Shown here in pieces: positions 50,909 to 60,911 of a stretch of DNA of 64,000 nucleotides. Origin of the DNA: Pseudoxanthomonas sp. CF125 (GTDB lineage Bacteria > Pseudomonadota > Gammaproteobacteria > Xanthomonadales > Xanthomonadaceae); contig NZ_FNLD01000003.1 in the NCBI RefSeq assembly GCF_900104085.1, positions 307,001 through 371,000 of the forward strand, read 5' to 3'. Position 1 is the stretch's first letter. Each line of letters starts with the position of its first letter. A model generated the notes under the pieces. It was given only the letters and a program-made list of their open reading frames with translations, did not search any database and was not told the origin of the DNA. The translations under genes were made by a program, and so were the position numbers.

Positions 50909-51922
50909 TCAAAGCATGATTTCGATCTCGCGGAATTCATCCGCCTGCGGCAGGCCGTTCCCCGACCAGAATTGCTCCAGGCTGGCCCGCACCACATCCA
51001 GCCGGGTCGAAGCTCCGCGCTGCAGGGGGAAACGTTTCAGGTTCTCCGATTGCAGCTGCAGGATGCGTCTGTCCTGCTCGCTGACCTGCCGTAGGAACGG
51101 CCAAACCAGAAGACGTACGGCCCATGCGGGCGCCCAGCGGCCTTCGACGTGCAGCGTGGCGAACACGTCGGTCTCTTCGCTGGTCCGTGGAGTGAAATGC
51201 AAGGTGATGCGGACGATGCCGCCTTTGGCATAGCGATACTCGATTTGCGCACTGCCCGGGGCCGCGAAATGCGCACGCTCCAGCGTGCGTCGCGATTCGA
51301 AAAGGCGATACAGCAGCCCCGATTGCCGGTCCTGACCGGAATAGTCCACGCTGAATCCTTCGGCGGTTCCGCTGAAGCGAACCTTGGTGCGCGTTCTCTC
51401 CCCGTTGCGACGCACCAGTCCCGGGTGGATGGCATGGGTGTGCATGGGATCCAGAAAGTTTTCCGTCGCATCGACCACATGCGCCCGCCAGCGGGTCTGC
51501 CATAGGAAGCGGCGGTAGACGGGTTGCGAGCTGTTCACCAGTTCGCCTGGTCCGGCGGCACCGGTATCGGCGGGGCGCAGCCAGATCAGGCCATCGTGCT
51601 CCAGCAAGGGAAACGCGCGCGCGCGCACGCCCGGCAACGGCGATTCCGGCGGCATTCCAGGAACGGCTTGAAGCGCACCGTCGCTGCCAAACTCCCAGCC
51701 GTGGTAGGGGCAGGCGATACCCGTGGGTGTCCGGCAGCCGGCCGAAAGCGGAGCCTGCCGATGCGGGCACCGATCCTCCAGTGCAAGCAGTTGGCCCGTT
51801 TCCAGACGCGCAAGGACGATCGGCGAGCCAAGGACGGTGACGGCGATGGGCCGGCGCCGCAATTGGTCGCTGCGCGCGACCGCATACCAATAGGTGAAGA
51901 GCGAGGGATGCCAGGGCTTCAT
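50909..51922 (-). CDS. Rieske [2Fe-2S] non-heme iron oxygenase
   Basis: A 337-residue ring-hydroxylating-type oxygenase. The Rieske cluster ligands are C52/H54 (CPHRQAPL) and C71/H74 (CPYHGW). The mononuclear iron site is NFLDPMHTHAIH, with D158, H161 and H166. It has no obvious reductase partner nearby. Members of this class hydroxylate, desaturate or N/O-dealkylate small molecules, including late steps in natural product pathways. It is the last gene of the six-gene leftward operon and starts in the GNAT stop codon (ATGA). The substrate is presumably the KAS III-derived product; this is inference. Confidence 0.88.
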   Translation of the reverse strand: MKPWHPSLFTYWYAVARSDQLRRRPIAVTVLGSPIVLARLETGQLLALEDRCPHRQAPLSAGCRTPTGIACPYHGWEFGSDGALQAVPGMPPESPLPGVRARAFPLLEHDGLIWLRPADTGAAGPGELVNSSQPVYRRFLWQTRWRAHVVDATENFLDPMHTHAIHPGLVRRNGERTRTKVRFSGTAEGFSVDYSGQDRQSGLLYRLFESRRTLERAHFAAPGSAQIEYRYAKGGIVRITLHFTPRTSEETDVFATLHVEGRWAPAWAVRLLVWPFLRQVSEQDRRILQLQSENLKRFPLQRGASTRLDVVRASLEQFWSGNGLPQADEFREIEIML

Positions 51923-53028
51923 AGTTTGTACTTCGTCAGCAATGGAGCGCCTACGCGCCGTGTCGCCAAGGAGAGAATTCCGATCGCGTTGCGAAGCTTT
52001 CGCGGCAGGTGCCGTGCATAGACTGCGCTGTACTCGATAGCCGGCACGCCGCCGCGCAAACGTTTGAACTGGGCGGCGCCGGCGCTGAAGTTCAGGCGAC
52101 CTCCCTTTTCCATCGTCGCCTCATACGCGCAAGCGGTCAGCAGTCGGTACAGGCCCAGCTGCCGTGGCAGCGAGGTGTCGTAACCCACGATGGGCGAGGT
52201 GAAAGTAGCGCCTTGCCGGAACAGACCGACCACGCACTGCAGAACACCCGATGCATCGCGGAACCCGTGGAACTCCAGCAGCCCGGCCTTGTGCCAGCAG
52301 CGCATGAATTCGGCGCTGTAGTGAGGATTGAAGCGGGAGTATTTTTCAATGTAGAGCAGCTCGTAGAGCCTGACGATGCGCGGGTAGTCGTCGTCGGCGA
52401 TGCCGTCATCGCGTACGCGGTGCAAGCTGGTGCGTCCGAGCTGCTGAAGATCCCGTTTCAGATTGGCATGCCGGGCCGACAGCGCGGCCAGGTTCTCGTA
52501 AAGATAGACCTGACGGCTGACTACGAACTGGAAGCCAAGTTCGCCCAGGGCAGCGATCCAGTCGGCATTGTCGATGGTGTTCAGCGAGCGGAACCAGATC
52601 GCATGGTCGGGCCAGCGTTCGCGCGCGGCCCGGATCGTCGTTGCCAGCGGAACCGTCCGCAACGGCGGATAAAGATTGGTCGATAGCAGCCAGTTGTTGA
52701 TGGCTGCGACGCGGTCGATGCCGGCGCCCGTCAGCCAATCGCCGAGTCCCTTGCTCAAGCCGCGGCTGCCACGGGCCATCCACGCGGGAAGATAGCGCTC
52801 GGCTTCCTCGGCTGCGCAATCGGCGTAAGTGGCCCGCGGCGAACACACCCAAGCATCGCCGGGCCCGCCATCGCTTAGGGTGACCGGCATGGTGATTTCG
52901 CCCGCCTGCAGCGTCTCGACCCTGGCGCTCAGGTTCGCCGCAAAGGTCTTCGGCGGTTCGCCGGCATGAATCCGCGCGAAAGCACGGGCACGTTCGGAGA
53001 AATCATGGTCCGTGGCGGACGCGCTCAT
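51919..53028 (-). CDS. GNAT acyltransferase (FemAB/CelD-like, Acetyltransf_6)
   Basis: A 369-residue protein. The C-terminal half has the FemAB/CelD-like GNAT signature, an aromatic-rich GLYRLLTACAYEATMEKGGRLNFSAGAAQFKRLRGG segment (about residues 300-335), and an N-terminal lobe of unknown class. Such enzymes transfer an acyl group, often aminoacyl from tRNA or acyl-CoA/ACP, to an amine. The ATG at 53028 overlaps the ATP-grasp stop (ATGA), fixing the start despite an upstream in-frame ATG. Within the operon it could acylate the ligase product with a KAS III-made chain; no direct evidence. Confidence 0.78.
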   Translation of the reverse strand: MSASATDHDFSERARAFARIHAGEPPKTFAANLSARVETLQAGEITMPVTLSDGGPGDAWVCSPRATYADCAAEEAERYLPAWMARGSRGLSKGLGDWLTGAGIDRVAAINNWLLSTNLYPPLRTVPLATTIRAARERWPDHAIWFRSLNTIDNADWIAALGELGFQFVVSRQVYLYENLAALSARHANLKRDLQQLGRTSLHRVRDDGIADDDYPRIVRLYELLYIEKYSRFNPHYSAEFMRCWHKAGLLEFHGFRDASGVLQCVVGLFRQGATFTSPIVGYDTSLPRQLGLYRLLTACAYEATMEKGGRLNFSAGAAQFKRLRGGVPAIEYSAVYARHLPRKLRNAIGILSLATRRVGAPLLTKYKL

Positions 53029-54182
53029 GTCTGCGAGAGGCATTCGCCATCCCATTCGATATCCCGTGTCGCCGCTTCCCGGAGATTGCAGCCTTGCCGG
53101 ATAGCCAGCCGCGAGTAGGAGCACAGATCCAGCAAGGCTCCCGCAAGAGGCAGCCGGTCACCCGGCGCTGTAACCACGTCCCTGGCGCGCCGATAGTCGT
53201 GTCGCCAGCGCTGCAGGGTCGAATTGGCCGTTGCCTGATACAGACCCGCCGAGAGCATGAGAGCGGCGATCATGGCGGGCTGCTCGTTGTGCGGCTCCAC
53301 GCACTGGCCGATCTCGCCGGCCAGTGCCGCCGGCAGCCCATCGTGCTCGGAGAACAGATGCAAACCGCTGGTAGCCCGCGGGTTGCATTCGATCACGGTC
53401 GCTTCGCCGTCTTCGCCCTGAATCCAGTCGAAGGAGATCTGCCCGGTGAAATTCATCTTGCGCACGAATGCGGAAACGAAACTCCGGATCTTCCCGGAGG
53501 GATACGGGTCGAAGTAGAAGCTGGAACTGCGCTGTATCCGGTAGCCGGGCCGATAGACCGCGTGGGCCAGTAGCCGACCACGATCGGCGACTCCGTAGGA
53601 ACACAGCTCGATACCGGCGTGATACCGCTGCGCCACCCAGGCGCCGGCGATGCCCAGTTCCGGGGCTCGCATCGGCAAACCCTCAGGATAGAGGCGCACA
53701 TGCACGCCGAAACGCGAGTACTCGGGCTTCAGCACGACAGGTTCGGCACCCGCCCATGCGCGGGCTTCCGCCAATGAAGCGACCCGGCAGCTCGCCGGCA
53801 CGCGGACGCCGCAGCCTTGTGCGGCTGCGACGAAATGCCACTTGCTATGCAGTGTGCGCAGCGTGCCGAAGTCGTCGGCAAGCACGCGTACGTTCGCCGG
53901 CAACAGGTCGCGATATCGCGAAAGATAGAAAACTTCCTCGCATGTCGGCACGATCAGATCTATCCCGTACCTTCTTATCGCAGCGCAGATGCCCTCCACG
54001 AAAGCCATCGGCGCATAGCGCGGGGAGGCCAACGACAAAGTCGCAACCACCGAACGCGACCAACCCGAGAGCCGGCAAGGGATACTGTCGGCCAGGCACA
54101 CCTTCCAGCCTTGGCTTTCGAAACGACGGGCATGATCCAGCGCCACTGGTGCCCTGCCGCCCAGAATGAGCACGCTAGGCAT
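53025..54182 (-). CDS. ATP-grasp ligase
   Basis: A 385-residue ATP-grasp enzyme. An N-terminal Rossmann-like preATP-grasp domain (VLILGGRAPVALDHARRF) is followed by SKWHFVAAAQGCGVRVPAS and the ATP-binding lysine in PVVLKPEYSRFG. The metal-binding acids are in ISFDWIQGEDGEATVIECNPRATSG. The class joins a carboxylate, activated as acylphosphate, to an amine or thiol. AAGGAG eight bases before the ATG at 54182 is a perfect ribosome binding site, so the start is secure. Its 3' end is fused to the GNAT gene. It is closest in plan to CarB-like ATP-grasp proteins of peptide or amide natural product pathways. Confidence 0.85.
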   Translation of the reverse strand: MPSVLILGGRAPVALDHARRFESQGWKVCLADSIPCRLSGWSRSVVATLSLASPRYAPMAFVEGICAAIRRYGIDLIVPTCEEVFYLSRYRDLLPANVRVLADDFGTLRTLHSKWHFVAAAQGCGVRVPASCRVASLAEARAWAGAEPVVLKPEYSRFGVHVRLYPEGLPMRAPELGIAGAWVAQRYHAGIELCSYGVADRGRLLAHAVYRPGYRIQRSSSFYFDPYPSGKIRSFVSAFVRKMNFTGQISFDWIQGEDGEATVIECNPRATSGLHLFSEHDGLPAALAGEIGQCVEPHNEQPAMIAALMLSAGLYQATANSTLQRWRHDYRRARDVVTAPGDRLPLAGALLDLCSYSRLAIRQGCNLREAATRDIEWDGECLSQT

Positions 54183-55017
54183 CGGTCCGGCTCCTTGCGG
54201 GTCGCCATTCACGACAATGCGAGGGGACTATCCGCACTTCTGGCGCCTCTTTGCCAAGCGCATTCAATTTGGCCAGCGTATCGCGGTAGCTGCGCGTATC
54301 GCCCAGCCAGCTTGTCACTAGCGCTGGCGGTGGAATGAAGTCGCGGATGGCCTGGCTGGACCAACTGGCGTCGGCGATCAGGAATACCGGACCGCTGGCG
54401 TCCTCGAACAACAGGCCATAGTGGCCGGCGGCATGGCCAGGCAAGGCGATAAGCAACAGGCTGCGATCGCCGAACAGATCGTAGCCCGATCCGAACCGCT
54501 CGAATGGACCGGACAAAGCGACCGCGGGCCGATCTTCGAACCACTGCAACCGCGCCTGTGCGTGCGCATCAAGCAGCCCTGGCAGCAGTCCCATGCTGAG
54601 CGCGCCGACACGGCTGCGGCTTTGCATGTCCTTCCAGGCCTCGTGCGAAAGCGCGATTTTAGAATACGGAAAATCGGCGAGCCCGCCGACATGATCGCCA
54701 TGCAGATGGGAAACCACGACCCATGCGACAGCGGATGCGGGAATGCCATCGTGCTCGAGCTGCAACGACAACGCCGCGCCATCGTGCAGGCGCACCGGCG
54801 TCACCATCCGGTACAGCCGCTCCGGGAATCGTTCGGTGGCATGGAAGAAGTGCCGGGAGTAGCCGGTATCGAACAGGACGATCCCGTGCCCGGGATGCCG
54901 CAGCACCGATACCAGCGCGGGGAATTCGCATGCGCGGAGCGATCCGCCGGCCTTGGTCGCCCGTTCGGGGTGGGTGCAGTACCCGGCTTCATAGAGACGC
55001 CATTCAAGTGCCGGCAT
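54175..55017 (-). CDS. MBL-fold metallo-hydrolase
   Basis: A 280-residue metallo-beta-lactamase fold protein. The metal site is HLHGDHVGG (about residues 104-112), followed by GHAAGHYGLLF and a C-terminal acidic/histidine pattern (IADASWS; VPSHCREW). It resembles N-acyl homoserine lactonases of the AhlD/AiiA group in length and in the YCTHPERATKAGG start. In a biosynthetic operon it could hydrolyse a thioester or lactone. It overlaps both neighbours (8 and 14 bases). Lactonase activity on signalling molecules is an alternative that cannot be excluded. Confidence 0.85.
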   Translation of the reverse strand: MPALEWRLYEAGYCTHPERATKAGGSLRACEFPALVSVLRHPGHGIVLFDTGYSRHFFHATERFPERLYRMVTPVRLHDGAALSLQLEHDGIPASAVAWVVVSHLHGDHVGGLADFPYSKIALSHEAWKDMQSRSRVGALSMGLLPGLLDAHAQARLQWFEDRPAVALSGPFERFGSGYDLFGDRSLLLIALPGHAAGHYGLLFEDASGPVFLIADASWSSQAIRDFIPPPALVTSWLGDTRSYRDTLAKLNALGKEAPEVRIVPSHCREWRPARSRTDA

Positions 55018-55999
55018 GCTGTTTCCACCATCGCGCGTAACGCTCGATTCCCTGATCGATGGAGATCGCCGGTGCGTAGCCGAGTTCGCGCCGGGCCAGC
55101 GAGATATCCAGCGTCTGCGAATAGCCGAGCACGCCTACGCCGTAACGGGTCAGCCGCGGTTCGGGACGTCCGGGGCGTGCGCGTGCGATGCGTTCCGCAA
55201 TGCCTGCCATGGCCACCGCGACCCGACGCGGTACTGGGACCAGACGGACTTCGCGGCCCATGGCGGCGAACAATTTGGCGATCAGTTCGACGACCCGGAT
55301 GGGGTCGCCATTGGTGACGTTGTAGGCGCGTCCATCGGCAACGACATCGGCCTCCAGGCATTGGGCTACGAGTCGCGACAGGTTGCCGACATAGGTCACG
55401 TCGATGACTGCCCCACCGCTGTGTATCAACGGGAACCAGCCCCGGTCGGCGATCGCCATCAGCCGGGGCAGGATGGCCTGGTCGCGCTCGCCGAAGACCG
55501 CGCGCGGCCTCAGCACCAGCGCTTCCAGCCCATTGGCGGCGGCGGAGCGGACGCAGAGTTCAGACTCCCATTTGCTGCGCGCGTAGTCGGTGATCCATCG
55601 CCGCGGCGGTTCGAATCGTTCGTCGATCCCATATTGATCCGCAAAGCGGAAATGGATGCTGGGCGAACCCATGTGGATGAAACGGCGCACGCCAGCGCGC
55701 TGGCTCGCTTCCAGGATTCGACGTGTAGCGAGTACGTTGGCGCGCGAGAAGCTGTCCGCTGCGCCCCAGGGAGAAGACAATGCGGCGCAATGGACGACCG
55801 CGTCGCATGCCTCCGCCAACGGCTCGAGCGGATCGGTAGACAGGTCGGCGGCAGCCAGCTGCGCTGCCGTACCTTGCAGCAATCGCAGCCGCTCCAGGCA
55901 ACGTCCATTGGCGATGACCTGGTGCCCCGATGCTGCCAGATGAGCGGCAACATGACTGCCGATGAAGCCGGAAGCGCCAGTGACGAGGATGCGCGCCAT
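55004..55999 (-). CDS. NAD-dependent epimerase/dehydratase family protein (3-beta-HSD/OleD-like)
   Basis: A 331-residue extended SDR. It shows the NAD motif ILVTGASGFIGSH, DAVVHCAALSSPWG, the catalytic YARSK with serine in MGSPSIHF, and RPRAVFGERD. The pattern resembles 3-beta-hydroxysteroid dehydrogenase-like enzymes such as OleD, which reduce the beta-keto acid made by OleA. The gene next upstream is a KAS III, as OleA is, so reduction of a KAS III product is a natural hypothesis. No OleB/OleC homologues are present. The gap to the KAS III stop is three bases. Confidence 0.85.
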   Translation of the reverse strand: MARILVTGASGFIGSHVAAHLAASGHQVIANGRCLERLRLLQGTAAQLAAADLSTDPLEPLAEACDAVVHCAALSSPWGAADSFSRANVLATRRILEASQRAGVRRFIHMGSPSIHFRFADQYGIDERFEPPRRWITDYARSKWESELCVRSAAANGLEALVLRPRAVFGERDQAILPRLMAIADRGWFPLIHSGGAVIDVTYVGNLSRLVAQCLEADVVADGRAYNVTNGDPIRVVELIAKLFAAMGREVRLVPVPRRVAVAMAGIAERIARARPGRPEPRLTRYGVGVLGYSQTLDISLARRELGYAPAISIDQGIERYARWWKQHAGT

Positions 56000-56002
56000 G
56001 GT

Positions 56003-57019
56003 TCAGTAGCGCACCACGGCGCCGCCGAACGAAAGTCCGGCGCCCGAACCGACCAATGCGATCAGGTCTCCACGCAGGATTTCGCCCCGCTCTATGGCCC
56101 CATGCAGGGCAATGGGTATGGAGGCGGCCATCTGGTTGCCGCGCGTTTCCAGCACCCGCACCAGCATGTCGGAGCGCAGTTCCAGCGCCACTTCCAGATG
56201 CTTGAGCGCCTTGGCGCTGGCCTGGTGCGGAACCAGCTTCTTCAGATCGCCGATGGCGACACCGGAACGCGTCGATAGGCGGGCCATGAAGCGCGGCAGA
56301 TGCTGCGCGGCCAGACGATAGGTGGCCCGTCCGGACATTTCGAAATGCGCGCCCTGCTTGAACGCTTCCAAGCCGTCTGCGATCCGCAATCGCGTACCGC
56401 CGGCGCGCACTTGGCACAGCTCGGCGCCTTCGGAATAGGTTTCCATGTGCGCAGCGAGGAATTGCGAACCCTCTTCGGCAAGGCAAGCCTCGGCCACCAC
56501 GGCCGCCGCGCCATCGCCGAACAGGGGCGCGGTTTCCTGATCGTTCCAGTCCAGCCCTGCAGACGCCACTTCGCTGGAGACGATCAGTACCCTGCGATAG
56601 CGGCCGACGGCAATCGCCGCCGCGGCCAGGTCCAGGGCGACGACGAAACCAAGACAAGTCGCATTGATGTCGAATGCGGGAATTCCGCTGCCGGCAAGGC
56701 CCAGGCGGCGATGCACCAGCGCTGCGGTACAGGGAATGGCCTGCTCCATCACGCTGCACGCGGATATCACGCAGTCGAGCTGGTCGGCGCGGAGGCCCGC
56801 GCGGCGCAACGCGTCTTCAGCGGCGCGGGCGGCCATCAAAGACGCCGGTTCCTCATTGGTCGCGTAGTGCCGGTAGTCGATGCCGAGTTGCCGGCGGGTC
56901 CAGCCGGCGGGCTTGTCCCAGCGTGCGTCGAACTCCTCCGACCGGACCAGACGCGACGGGATGTACTCGCCGGTCCCTGTTATTCGGAGCGGAATCGGCG
57001 GCGGCGTTCTTTCATCCAT
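56003..57019 (-). CDS. Beta-ketoacyl-ACP synthase III-type condensing enzyme
   Basis: A 338-residue KAS III/FabH-like thiolase-fold enzyme. The catalytic cysteine is at about residue 122 (FDINATCLGF), the histidine is in VPHQAS and the asparagine in RGNQMAAS, so the Cys-His-Asn triad is complete. It condenses an acyl-CoA or acyl-ACP with malonyl-ACP, or two acyl chains in the OleA subfamily. It is the first gene of the leftward operon and probably sets its substrate class. Start choices are ATG 57019, ATG 57031 and TTG 57037; none has a strong ribosome binding site. The 205-base gap upstream carries the palindrome at 57118. Confidence 0.9.
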   Translation of the reverse strand: MDERTPPPIPLRITGTGEYIPSRLVRSEEFDARWDKPAGWTRRQLGIDYRHYATNEEPASLMAARAAEDALRRAGLRADQLDCVISACSVMEQAIPCTAALVHRRLGLAGSGIPAFDINATCLGFVVALDLAAAAIAVGRYRRVLIVSSEVASAGLDWNDQETAPLFGDGAAAVVAEACLAEEGSQFLAAHMETYSEGAELCQVRAGGTRLRIADGLEAFKQGAHFEMSGRATYRLAAQHLPRFMARLSTRSGVAIGDLKKLVPHQASAKALKHLEVALELRSDMLVRVLETRGNQMAASIPIALHGAIERGEILRGDLIALVGSGAGLSFGGAVVRY

Positions 57020-57117
57020 GTGTAGCAACATCCTCAAGGTGGCACCGGCGCTAGCCTGAGGCGCTCATGCCGTTGCTTGCAAGCCGTTCGTGGCAGGAAC
57101 ACGCCCATGGCATGCCC

Positions 57118-57136
57118 GGTATCATAATTTGATACC
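57118..57136 (-). promoter_or_regulatory. Perfect palindrome GGTATCA-N5-TGATACC, candidate operator overlapping a -10 box
   Basis: Seven-base perfect arms with a five-base AT spacer (57118-57136). Read leftward it contains TATGAT, five of six matches to the -10 consensus, placing a start near 57113, about 90 bases before the KAS III start. A dimeric repressor bound here would block the operon. No -35 box stands out. No matching regulator is adjacent; the broken XRE gene at 60687 is a possible former partner. Confidence 0.55.
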
Positions 57137-57224
57137 ACTCTCTCTAAGGAATGACTTGGAATGCCGTGTCCACGATGACAACCGCTGTCGCGGCCGGACT
57201 TCGCGCATCCCTGAATCACATGAA

Positions 57225-58472
57225 CTAGCTCCCCACTTTTCCACGCAGCGAGTACAGCGGCTCCAATACCCATTCATAGAGCTTGCGGCGCTCGCCCAGT
57301 ATGTCGGCATCCAGCCGCATGCCCGGCCGCAACGGCTCTTGTTTGCCGTAGGCGGTGATGGATTGCTCTTCCAGGGCCACCAGTACGCGGTAGTAGGGCT
57401 CCGCGCTCTGACCGTCGCCGCCGGCAGGGGTAATGGCGCTGCGCGATACACGAATCACTTTGCCGCGGTGGTGTCCGAACTTCTGGTAGGGGTACGCCTG
57501 ATAGCGCAGCAACACACTATCGCCCGGCTCAATGAAACCTACGGCCGCGCTGGGCACCAGCAACTGCGCCTGCAACCGTGAGCCCTTGGGTAAAAGACTC
57601 ATCAACGGCTGTCCGGCCTGCACCGCTTGGCCCGGTTCTATCAGGCGATTGGCGACCAGTCCTGCCAATGGCGCTCGCACCAGCAGCTCGCCGTTGGCCT
57701 CCTGCTGCACGCGCTCCTGTTCCAGCATCGCCAGATCGCGGCTGGTGGTCGCCAGCAGCCCCCTGCGCTGAGCGGGAAGTTCGCGCAAGGTCTGATCCAG
57801 CTGCGCAAGGCTGCGGCGGATCGAAGTGGCTTGCCGTTCCAGGCTTTGCTGGGCGTTGATCAGCTCGAGCAGGGATTGCTGTTGCTGATTCAACTGCACC
57901 TGGCTGACATACTTCTGATCCGCTACCAGCTGATAGCGCCCCGTGGTTTCCTTGCCGATACGCACCTGTTCGCGGCGTGTCGATATTTCGTTCTCTATTT
58001 GCGCCAGCTCGTGTTGCGCAGTGGCGCGCTGGCGGCCGATGCCCTGGACCTGCGCGTCTATCTGCTCGGCTTGCGACTGGCCCAGTTCGGTCAGGCTGTC
58101 GCGCCGGGTTTCCAGACCGCCCCTGATCACCGTCAATGCGTCGCTGCCGGCAGCGGTCACTCGCGGCACATCAATCAAGGTCAGCGCATCGTCGGCTTTC
58201 ACCTGGTCCCCTTCTTCGGGGAAGAGCCGGCCTACGACGCCATTGGTCGGCGACACGATGGTCGATAGGCCAAGGTCCGGCACGAGTTCTCCTGCAACCC
58301 GCGAGCGGCGCGTGTAGTCGCCCATGACCAGGAAACAGATCACGGCCGAGGCAGCGAGCATCGCGAAGCCGGACAACGTCCATAGCCGCAGCGGCTGAGC
58401 AAGAGAGATTCCTCCCAGCCAGCTGTTGCGCTTGGCTTCCAGCACTTCATGACGGAACAGGGAATCAGTCAT
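57225..58472 (-). CDS. HlyD-family periplasmic adaptor (type I secretion / bacteriocin export)
   Basis: A 415-residue membrane fusion protein. A cytoplasmic N-terminus (MTDSLFRHEVLEAKRNSWLGG) is followed by one transmembrane helix (about residues 33-52), a lipoyl-like domain (IVSPTNGVVGRLFPEEGDQV), a long coiled coil rich in Gln/Glu/Leu (about 110-270) and the second lipoyl half (LVRAPLAGLVANRLIEPGQAV). The RHEV(L)EAKR start is typical of adaptors paired with C39-peptidase ABC exporters of class II bacteriocins. It pairs with the ABC gene upstream but is separated from it by a 171-base repeat-bearing gap. Confidence 0.9.
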   Translation of the reverse strand: MTDSLFRHEVLEAKRNSWLGGISLAQPLRLWTLSGFAMLAASAVICFLVMGDYTRRSRVAGELVPDLGLSTIVSPTNGVVGRLFPEEGDQVKADDALTLIDVPRVTAAGSDALTVIRGGLETRRDSLTELGQSQAEQIDAQVQGIGRQRATAQHELAQIENEISTRREQVRIGKETTGRYQLVADQKYVSQVQLNQQQQSLLELINAQQSLERQATSIRRSLAQLDQTLRELPAQRRGLLATTSRDLAMLEQERVQQEANGELLVRAPLAGLVANRLIEPGQAVQAGQPLMSLLPKGSRLQAQLLVPSAAVGFIEPGDSVLLRYQAYPYQKFGHHRGKVIRVSRSAITPAGGDGQSAEPYYRVLVALEEQSITAYGKQEPLRPGMRLDADILGERRKLYEWVLEPLYSLRGKVGS

Positions 58473-58643: not shown

Positions 58644-60704
58644 TCATAGCGCCACCGCCGTCAGCGTCGCAGCCGCAGCTGCAACCCGCACCGAAAGATG
58701 CTCCTCCACAATCCGCCCACCCTGCATCACCAGCACCCGGTCCGCGCTGGCAATCGTCTCCGTCCGGTGCGCGATGATCACCTTGGTCAACTTGAGCGCG
58801 CGCACGGCCTCGTTGACCAGACGTTCGCGCGCCACATCCAGGTGACTGGTGGCTTCGTCCAGGAACAGAATGCGCGGCATGCGGTAAAGGGCGCGCGCCA
58901 GGATCACCCGCTGCTTCTGCCCGCCCGACAGTGTGGTGCCCATATCGCCGATCAGGCTGTGGTAGCCCATCGGCATGGCGACTATTTCGTCATGCACGGC
59001 CGCCAGGCGAGCGGCGGCTTCGATACGTTCGGAATCGAAGCCTTCCTCGCCGAAGGCGATGTTCTCTGCCACGCTGCCGGCGAAAAGCTGATCGTCCTGC
59101 ATCACCGCGCCGACCATCCGCCGGTAGTTGTGCGGGCCCAGCTTGGCGATATCGTGCCCGCCCGCGGCAATCGTGCCTTGCGTTGGTTTCAACAGGCCCA
59201 GCAGCAGCTTTACCAGAGTGGTCTTGCCGCAGCCCGAGGGACCGACGATGGCGACCGATTCGCCTTCCTCCACGGTGAAGCTGCAGTCCTGCAGCACCCA
59301 CGGCTCGCCTTCGGCGTAGCGGAAGTTCAGCCCTTTTATTTCCAGGCGCGTACTTGCGGGCGAAGCCTGTTCGAAGCCATGTCCGTCCAGGAGTTCCGGT
59401 TCGGCCAGTGCGATATCCGCCAGGCGTTCGCCATGCAGACGCAGCATGCGGAACTCGACCCATTTGTCGATCAGGCCACTGACCCTTCCGGCGAACTGGT
59501 CCTTGTAGGCCAGGTAGGCGATCAGCATGCCGACCGAGAACACGTTCTGCATGGCCAACAGCGCGCCTATCCAGATCACGGCGATGCGCTCGGCGCCGAA
59601 GATCAGCTGGCTGGCGGTGTTGAAGCCCAAGCCCAGTTTGGCCAGCCAGACATCGCGGTTGACGGTGTCGTTCATCAGGTTGAGGTAAATGGAACACCGG
59701 CTGCTTTCGCGTCCGGCAATCTTGACCGATTGCACGCCGCGGATCGACTCAAGCAGATGGCTTTGCTGTTTGGCGCCGGCGACCAATTGCTGCTCGGTGC
59801 CTTCACGCACCGGGCGGAAAGCCAATGCGCGAAGACCGAGGTACAGCGCTACGGCCAGCAAGGTGATCAAAGCCAATTTCCAGCTGTAGAGCAGCATCAT
59901 GCCCAAAGTCACCACGGCCATCAGTCCATCGATCAGGGCTTCGACGAAGCTTGTGGTCAGGGTGCGCTGGATGGTCTGCACGCTGCCCATGCGCGAAGTG
60001 ATGTCGCCCAGGTGGCGCTTCTCGAAGAAATCCAGCGGCAGCTTGAGCAGATGGCTGAAGACGTTGCCCATCCACTGCAGGCCGAGCCGGCTGGAGAGAT
60101 ACACCACAGACCACCCACGCAATAGTCCAATGCTTACCTGGAGGAGCAGGACCAGAGCGAAACCCAGGCCCAGCACCGTCAGCAAGCTGCGGTCGGCGGA
60201 GATCAGTACCTGGTCCACTACCCACTGCATGAAGAATGGGGCCAGGATCACGAACACTTGCAAGGCCACCGACAAAGCGAGAATCAAAGCCAGCGAACGC
60301 CACAGACCGGTGACGCGGCCGGTCAGCTGGCGAAAGGAAATGCTGGGCGCGGCTTTCTGCGGCTTGAACTCGGCAGAAGGCGTCAGCTCCAACGCTACGC
60401 CAGTGAAATGGTCGGAGATTTCGGCATAGCTGAGCTCGCGCTTGCCGAAGGCAGGGTCAAGAATGGTGATTTTCTTCTTGCCAACTTTGGCCAAAACGAC
60501 GAAGTGGTTCAAGTTCCAGTGCAGGATGCAGGGCAGCTTAAGTTCGCCCAGATGCTCCATGTCCAGCCGCAATGGGCGGCATTGAAAGCCGAGTTGCCCA
60601 GCGACCGTCATCAAGCGTGAGAGGTTGGCGCCTTTCAGCGATAGCGGGAAGCATTGGCGTAGATCGCGCAATGTGAGCTTCTGACCGTGGTGGTCGGCCA
60701 CCAT
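58644..60704 (-). CDS. C39-peptidase-type ABC exporter, N-terminally truncated (catalytic cysteine missing)
   Basis: A 686-residue ABC exporter of the bacteriocin-processing class. The peptidase domain is recognisable from MVADHHGQKLTLRDLRQCFP (ATG at 60704), with the catalytic histidine in LNHFVVLAKV and aspartate in ILDPAFG. The usual preceding segment with the active cysteine (consensus ECGLACLAMVA) is absent; upstream in-frame codons read PQAGGQLTLAEPAMVA and lack similarity. Six membrane helices follow (about 190-450), then the ATPase with Walker A GPSGCGKTT, signature LSGGQKQRV and Walker B ILFLDEATSHLD. It should still transport but not cleave leaders. The break coincides with the truncation of the facing XRE gene. 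Confidence 0.88.
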   Translation of the reverse strand: MVADHHGQKLTLRDLRQCFPLSLKGANLSRLMTVAGQLGFQCRPLRLDMEHLGELKLPCILHWNLNHFVVLAKVGKKKITILDPAFGKRELSYAEISDHFTGVALELTPSAEFKPQKAAPSISFRQLTGRVTGLWRSLALILALSVALQVFVILAPFFMQWVVDQVLISADRSLLTVLGLGFALVLLLQVSIGLLRGWSVVYLSSRLGLQWMGNVFSHLLKLPLDFFEKRHLGDITSRMGSVQTIQRTLTTSFVEALIDGLMAVVTLGMMLLYSWKLALITLLAVALYLGLRALAFRPVREGTEQQLVAGAKQQSHLLESIRGVQSVKIAGRESSRCSIYLNLMNDTVNRDVWLAKLGLGFNTASQLIFGAERIAVIWIGALLAMQNVFSVGMLIAYLAYKDQFAGRVSGLIDKWVEFRMLRLHGERLADIALAEPELLDGHGFEQASPASTRLEIKGLNFRYAEGEPWVLQDCSFTVEEGESVAIVGPSGCGKTTLVKLLLGLLKPTQGTIAAGGHDIAKLGPHNYRRMVGAVMQDDQLFAGSVAENIAFGEEGFDSERIEAAARLAAVHDEIVAMPMGYHSLIGDMGTTLSGGQKQRVILARALYRMPRILFLDEATSHLDVARERLVNEAVRALKLTKVIIAHRTETIASADRVLVMQGGRIVEEHLSVRVAAAAATLTAVAL

Positions 60705-60911
60705 AGCCGGCTCAGCCAGCGTCAATTGGCCTCCCGCTTGGGGTTGGCGCACAGCACACTGGGACATTGGGAGAACAACCGCTCTTCGCCCAATGCCTGC
60801 CATTTGCTTCGTATTGCCGAGATCACCGGTGCCGATGTCTTCTCGCTGCTGACGGGGAAGCCGTCGCTGCGTACCGACGACCCCATGCACAAGAATGAGA
60901 AGGCCGCCTGA
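60687..60911 (+). pseudogene. N-terminally truncated XRE/Cro-family regulator
   Basis: A 74-codon frame beginning at GTG 60687. From RLSQRQLASRLGLAHSTLGH it follows the XRE helix-turn-helix consensus through WENNRSSPNACHLLRIAEITGADVFSLLTG, but the normal first 15 or so residues (helix 1) are missing. The first codons instead read the opposite strand of the ABC gene. Both genes lose similarity to their families within about 5 bases of 60705, consistent with a deletion that removed their shared promoter region. A functional short protein cannot be excluded. Confidence 0.7.

Follow-up and report, generated by a model that had tools for sequence, protein, structure and literature searches.

MxnB and CorB are stand-alone ketosynthases of the myxopyronin and corallopyronin pathways, where they act on polyketide synthase (PKS) carrier proteins. 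For OleA, the condensing enzyme of the OleABCD pathway, one study describes a catalytic glutamate followed by a proline (Glu117 in X. campestris) as important (PMC7064751). Another describes operons in which ATP-grasp ligases and a Rieske protein accompany an oxygenase-cupin protein, a set different from the one considered here (PMC2922099). That set is a six-gene operon on the minus strand of a 64,000-nucleotide stretch of Pseudoxanthomonas sp. CF125 (Xanthomonadaceae; contig NZ_FNLD01000003.1, positions 307,001 to 371,000), the whole of which we call the window. Each of the six enzymes belongs to a known superfamily; the gene set, apparently, is undescribed. The original prediction, drawn from the sequence of the window, knew of no pathway with this set, and likewise we found no paper on it in the open-licence full-text literature (subscription papers may differ). 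We read the six genes as a single operon, the variant present in this strain of a modular, widespread pathway that would make a lipid/amino-acid conjugate without non-ribosomal peptide synthetase (NRPS) modules. As a whole this reading is tentative, and we place it slightly below even. The operon, its conservation, the predicted folds, the catalytic motifs and the modular co-occurrence of the genes are directly supported. The features of the locus are:

56003..57019, minus strand: KAS III-type ketosynthase (ketoacyl synthase, KAS), from Pfam, NCBIfam and a PDB profile search; nearest solved structures MxnB (4v2p) and CorB (4yuc).
55004..55999, minus strand: extended short-chain dehydrogenase/reductase (SDR) of the NAD-dependent epimerase family, from Pfam; best NCBIfam model OleD 2-alkyl-3-oxoalkanoate reductase, far under its cut-off.
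54175..55017, minus strand: metallo-beta-lactamase (MBL)-fold hydrolase, acyl-homoserine lactone (AHL)-lactonase-like, predicted thioesterase or lactonase, from Pfam, NCBIfam and motifs.
53025..54182, minus strand: ATP-grasp carboxylate-amine-ligase-like enzyme, nearest NCBIfam model PRK06849 (under cut-off), with AlphaFold and Foldseek.
51919..53028, minus strand: tandem GCN5-related N-acetyltransferase (GNAT) of Fem/MprF-type fold, predicted aminoacyl transferase, from Pfam, AlphaFold and VIA-align.
50909..51922, minus strand: Rieske non-haem iron oxygenase (Rieske and VanA_C domains), predicted hydroxylase or desaturase, from Pfam and motifs.
57020..57224, minus strand: stretch between the operon and the next gene upstream, where a promoter is expected, with no sigma-70-like consensus site.

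The six open reading frames (ORFs) are tightly packed within 50909-57019 and run, from upstream to downstream, KAS, SDR, MBL, ATP-grasp, GNAT and Rieske. A gap of 3 bases separates the KAS stop (56003) from the SDR start (55999); the SDR stop (55004) and MBL start (55017) overlap by 14 bases, the MBL stop (54175) and ATP-grasp ATG (54182) by 8, and the ATP-grasp stop (53025) and GNAT ATG (53028), like the GNAT stop (51919) and Rieske ATG (51922), by 4. The ORF coordinates bear out the arrangement originally described. The right edge given then, 57136, is no gene end: the KAS most likely starts at ATG 57019 (338 aa), with TTG 57037 and ATG 57031 as alternatives. Five of the six proteins pass a curated Pfam cut-off (KAS III, epimerase-type SDR, Lactamase_B, Acetyltransf_6, and Rieske with VanA_C).

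Within the Xanthomonadaceae 395 genomes were sampled, and 44 of them, spread over 11 of 54 genera, gave a match to the ATP-grasp query, weak in some cases; the surroundings of all 44 were inspected. In 24 of these genomes, including that of the window and one with a decayed copy, all six genes are present with their order unchanged, so the operon is more than a chance arrangement. Ten of the 24 have no extra gene, and the other 14, all of the genus labelled g228, carry a diguanylate-cyclase (GGDEF) gene between GNAT and Rieske (L057-L059 and 11 further loci, 14 of the 16 ATP-grasp-bearing g228 genomes). The decayed operon is one of these 14 (L122, genome G532): its ATP-grasp and MBL are in pieces and a KAS piece has an in-frame stop. 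Another GGDEF gene follows the AMP ligase of a Bacillota locus (L161, 8364-9434), and such neighbours hint at a possible link to cyclic di-GMP.

In 13 of the 44 genomes, all of the genus labelled g236, only ATP-grasp, GNAT and Rieske are found together. Of eight such genomes tested, seven carry elsewhere a divergent KAS of 41-43% identity and an MBL of 30-38%, with a divergent SDR between the two; the eighth, G476, has neither KAS nor MBL. Since g236 keeps the two halves apart, the operon seems to consist of two three-gene modules that usually travel together. Downstream of the g236 locus L114 Pfam identifies a TetR regulator, an HlyD-like protein and an ABC-2 permease, and at this place the remaining g236 loci, the short L117 aside, carry similar-sized genes (compared by size alone). 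The other seven of the 44 loci are incomplete or split, lie on short contigs (L126, 7.4 kb; L238, 3.8 kb) or gave no match at threshold (L239, no gene at the threshold used).

Beyond the family, the relatives are the best 80 of 319 confirmed in an MBL profile scan of a one-genome-per-species collection. These 80 named loci are ranked by similarity to a Legionella-type MBL and are not a random sample, and several are contigs of metagenome-assembled genomes (MAGs), possibly misbinned. Presence was counted on 60 of them, the flank being too short in 20: KAS in 58, SDR in 58, AMP ligase in 41, ATP-grasp in 36, GNAT in 31, GT21 in 12, UGT in 12 and Rieske in 10. Common to the relatives is a core of ketosynthase, OleD-like SDR and MBL, frequently joined by a TIGR02304-type AMP ligase that is missing from the operon in the window; no paper on TIGR02304 or its names was found in the open-licence full-text literature. 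Two kinds of tailoring genes accompany the core. Type A, that of the window, has ATP-grasp and GNAT and sometimes Rieske, while type B has lipid-type glycosyltransferases; all five type A genes (KAS, SDR, MBL, ATP-grasp, GNAT) are co-located in the window, as they are in named relatives.

Among the most frequent layouts, the order KAS-ATPgrasp-SDR-MBL-AMPligase-GNAT occurs in 19 of the 80 loci (by their titles, 18 Bacillota and one alphaproteobacterial MAG), KAS-SDR-MBL-AMPligase in eight (four on contigs with too little flank), and KAS-SDR-MBL-AMPligase-ATPgrasp-GNAT-Rieske in seven, from Pseudomonas, Dyella, Undibacterium, Legionella norrlandica and a gammaproteobacterial MAG; a Shewanella locus has this last layout with two extra GNATs. 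The layout of the window, without AMP ligase, is also seen in MAGs of Holophagae (L144), Planctomycetaceae (L196) and Thermomonas (L205). Type B accounts for 13 of the 80, seven of them in the layout KAS-MBL-SDR-GT21-hyp-UGT, and of the 13 only L189 carries ATP-grasp and GNAT as well, encoded on the opposite strand. Neighbours in type B that point to lipids are a UGT and a GT21-family glycosyltransferase (HpnI-like, 81 bits against 310). The cluster KAS-MBL-SDR-GT21-231 aa protein-UGT is present in L154, L167, L172, L176 (Xanthomonas) and L151 (Luteimonas); this cluster type looks like a glycolipid pathway, and no description of it was found in the literature searched.

KAS, SDR and MBL stand together in records assigned to ten phyla, several of them MAGs, an assignment taken partly from the ATP-grasp tree work and partly from the record names. 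The phylum sample gave an ATP-grasp at E 1e-30 or better in 9 of 398 genomes; among the eight besides that of the window, five have KAS, SDR, MBL, AMP ligase and Rieske, two are without the cassette and one lies on a 6.5-kb contig. Any ATP-grasp match at all, mostly weak, was present in 17 of 274 genomes of the class sample. The cassette is widespread yet patchy. The original prediction named separate occurrence of the genes in relatives as an argument against it. The order holds in the 24 family genomes, but parts occur separately in g236, and many relatives add an AMP ligase or replace the second half by glycosyltransferases, so that by this test a modular family takes the place of a fixed six-gene unit.

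The ATP-grasp tree (54 rows, four near-duplicates and rows under 350 aa left out, 15 family loci used) places the family, Dyella and Undibacterium in one supported group of 20 (100/100). Mapping presence of the AMP ligase on this tree needs six changes, three of them forced by supported branches. Two AMP-ligase-bearing rows fall inside the group of 20, and therefore the tree suggests that the AMP ligase was repeatedly lost, or regained.

The three core enzymes are conserved at their catalytic sites. The Cys-His-Asn triad of the KAS, correctly called intact in the original prediction (Cys128-His271-Asn301, numbering of P0006), is kept in all 70 sequences of an alignment of the window's KAS with 69 relatives over 300 aa. 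At the site of the OleA glutamate none of the 70 has Glu (Ile 48, Leu 12, Met 7, Val 3); the window has Ile, a hydrophobic residue as in the FabH of the same genome. A profile search of the PDB put MxnB and CorB nearest, at 361 and 357 bits, with the next at 257, and among NCBIfam models the KAS passes the KAS III subfamily model PRK09352 (263.7 bits, cut-off 249) and falls below the TIGR00747 fabH model (240 against 292.1). The SDR is 30% identical to the OleD of the same genome and scores best with the OleD equivalog, at 192.5 bits under a cut-off of 580; its motifs G..G.[IVL]G and Y...K occur in 70 of 70 relatives of at least 300 aa (5 of 75 were shorter and dropped). HxHxDH is found in 80 of 80 MBL relatives, PGH in 63 and P[ST]HC in 74. 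Two Planctomycetes have SDR-MBL fusion ORFs of 636 and 623 aa (L196, 2298-4208; L197, 9005-10876).

Because the Pfam score of the ATP-grasp protein is below the cut-off (17.1 against 23.2), its family was settled by the structure model, which has a clear ATP-grasp fold (AlphaFold, pLDDT 92.3). PRK06849 matches residues 13-392, also under its cut-off (337.5 against 406). A single-sequence search of PDB sequences returned no match, and a profile search returned only AMdnB (E 5.4e-7). PylC and L-amino-acid ligases are among the best Foldseek matches, PylC having the best E-value among solved structures, and the motif E[CF]NPR is kept in 42 of 42 relatives of at least 350 aa (1 of 43 was shorter and dropped). 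The GNAT model (pLDDT 93.4) has a Fem-type tandem GNAT fold, and its VIA-align list is headed by Sba18/Sbb17 and FemX. Against PDB sequences the GNAT gave chance-level matches only, one with the single sequence and three with the profile. A literature search on bacterial ceramide synthase, considered as a possible relative of the GNAT, yielded nothing on the gene set. The Rieske motifs CxH...CxxH and NxxDxxHxxxxH are present in 11 of 11 named relatives.

Genes next to some other relatives likewise point to lipids: L188 has LplT-Aas, L150 an LplT-like transporter, L209 a fatty-acid hydroxylase, L135 a GT4 with a PAP2_C protein, L141 similar genes and L163 an OleC-like ligase.

Around the operon itself, a promoter/terminator scan gave no sigma-70-like site upstream and 8 terminator-like sites, where shuffled sequence averaged 4.8 (sd 2.5), and none of the six proteins matches a PADLOC defence model. 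About 200 bases upstream lie genes for an HlyD-type adaptor (57225-58472) and a C39-peptidase ABC protein (58644-60752), NHLM/type I-like by NCBIfam but under the cut-offs. These were considered as product exporters and excluded from the system because they do not accompany the operon in the rest of the family, where the other 43 loci show no HlyD match and one ABC-type match (L061).

For the pathway we infer every substrate, the order of the steps and the product. By similarity to MxnB and CorB, the KAS would join an acyl thioester to a second thioester unit to give a beta-keto thioester, which the SDR would reduce to the beta-hydroxy form and from which the MBL would free the acid; where an AMP ligase is present, it may re-activate this beta-hydroxy acid. 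The ATP-grasp enzyme would then activate a carboxylate for coupling to an amine, in the simplest case that of an amino acid, the Fem/MprF-like GNAT could add a further aminoacyl unit, possibly from aminoacyl-tRNA, and the Rieske oxygenase would hydroxylate or desaturate the product. The result would be an oxidised, aminoacylated hydroxy-acyl lipid or a small lipopeptide that needs no NRPS modules. In type B clusters sugars would be attached to the acid of the core in place of amino acids. A bolder version, in our view rather doubtful, extends this to NRPS-free aminoacylated hydroxy-lipids across some ten phyla, possibly on a two-tailed scaffold, whose head groups would be amino acids (through ATP-grasp and a tRNA-using Fem-like enzyme) or sugars.

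Other readings change the first step or the last ones. An Ole-type head-to-head Claisen condensation of two fatty acyl thioesters, with OleD-like reduction to a two-tailed beta-hydroxy acid that would end up in an amide or sugar conjugate and not in a beta-lactone or olefin, would fit the OleD score of the SDR, the OleC-like ligase within the L163 operon, the AMP ligase that adjoins KAS, SDR and MBL in many relatives in parallel to OleC, and the lipid-metabolism genes beside some of them. As the leading reading it was set back by the glutamate missing from all 70 KAS sequences, and with a KAS just 24% identical to the OleA of the same genome and neither OleB nor OleC among the six genes we regard it as unlikely. 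The KAS could also act like FabH on acyl-CoA and malonyl-acyl carrier protein (ACP), giving a single-chain 3-hydroxy acid that supplies the acyl moiety of an amino-acid conjugate, which might serve as a signal; the PRK09352 score, the FabH-like hydrophobic residue at the glutamate site and the AHL-lactonase-like MBL agree with this. Its closest solved relatives are nevertheless MxnB and CorB, about 100 bits above FabH, and a dedicated KAS and SDR would be superfluous because fatty acid synthesis already supplies plain 3-hydroxyacyl-ACP, which makes this route improbable as well. Finally, the Fem-like protein might be an acyl-CoA N-acyltransferase and the ATP-grasp the source of an activated intermediate, the product being an N-acylated oxidised small molecule. 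With no NCBIfam model matching the GNAT at E 0.001, and all ten of its best VIA-align rows being Fem-type or streptothricin aminoacyl-tRNA-dependent enzymes, we find this quite improbable; the N-acylation by GNAT foreseen in the original prediction is likewise doubtful, the modelled fold being closest to Fem-type aminoacyl transferases.

Several observations weigh against the amino-acid conjugate that we prefer. The VIA-align scores of the ATP-grasp are 25.9 and 25.0 for GAR synthetase, 24.8 for a CPS-like protein, 24.6 for PurK and 24.1 for PylC, and because purine-pathway ligases match equally well or better, amino-acid ligase is one choice among its possible functions. For the GNAT, the lowest FemX rows (15.6-15.7) are tied under a one-Z-unit rule with the tandem acetyltransferase VipF (14.7), plain Foldseek puts a protein of unknown function first, and two hand-picked motifs are kept in just 22 of 34 and 24 of 34 relatives; a Fem-like fold, here a modelled one, is no proof of tRNA use. 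The six genes include no carrier protein, Rieske reductase or transporter. An AMP ligase search of 13 family genomes gave no match in 11 and weak, partial ones in the window's genome (31%) and one other. L226, L227 and L229 have Rieske and ATP-grasp with no GNAT match, and the ATP-grasp relatives L223 and L228 occur without the cassette, in neighbourhoods that pointed to no clear function; that of L228 (9030-11515) includes a P450-like 444-aa gene and CrtI-like genes, named by eye. The lipid-enzyme neighbours, too, are scattered single cases with no statistic.

The set occurs in distant phyla, its catalytic motifs conserved and its gene order mostly retained, and it probably makes a compound useful to many bacteria, although no product of it was found in the literature searched; two alternative tailoring sets on one core provide a ready comparative test of what that core produces. 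If the amino-acid version is true, the operon would be a compact alternative to NRPS for lipopeptides or aminolipids; the bolder version, if true, would mean a new class of bacterial aminolipids with one scaffold and interchangeable head groups.

Compared with known systems, the operon resembles OleABCD in starting with a thiolase-superfamily condensing enzyme and an OleD-like SDR; an AMP ligase, OleC-like or of another kind, is additionally present in some relatives. It differs in a KAS without the essential OleA glutamate, in an MBL in place of the alpha/beta-hydrolase OleB, in having no AMP ligase, and in an ATP-grasp, a Fem-like GNAT and a Rieske oxygenase without Ole counterpart. On sequence grounds, then, the combination departs from the defining features of OleABCD that were tested, and the same genome carries a separate complete oleABCD (L212, 8483-13715, contig C3; recognised by eye and by similarity to the SDR, the KAS and the OleC-like ligase), in agreement with the original view of a biosynthetic operon distinct from OleABCD. 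MxnB and CorB, the closest solved relatives of the KAS, have the same catalytic triad, but Pfam identifies no PKS, NRPS or ACP among the six genes, which is the range of that comparison. The GNAT shares its tandem fold with Fem/MprF and with Sba18/Sbb17, tRNA-dependent peptide synthases, at about 9-13% identity, and sits in a lipid-type set, not in wall or streptothricin synthesis. The ATP-grasp shares its fold with PylC and L-amino-acid ligases at about 17% identity or less, with GAR synthetase, a CPS-like protein and PurK at equal or better Z. Type B clusters, KAS-MBL-(AMP ligase)-SDR-GT21-UGT, have the same KAS/SDR/MBL core, with glycosyltransferases in place of ATP-grasp, GNAT and Rieske (except in L189). 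We rate the set as a variant among the hydroxy-acid pathways that are initiated by thiolase-superfamily enzymes.

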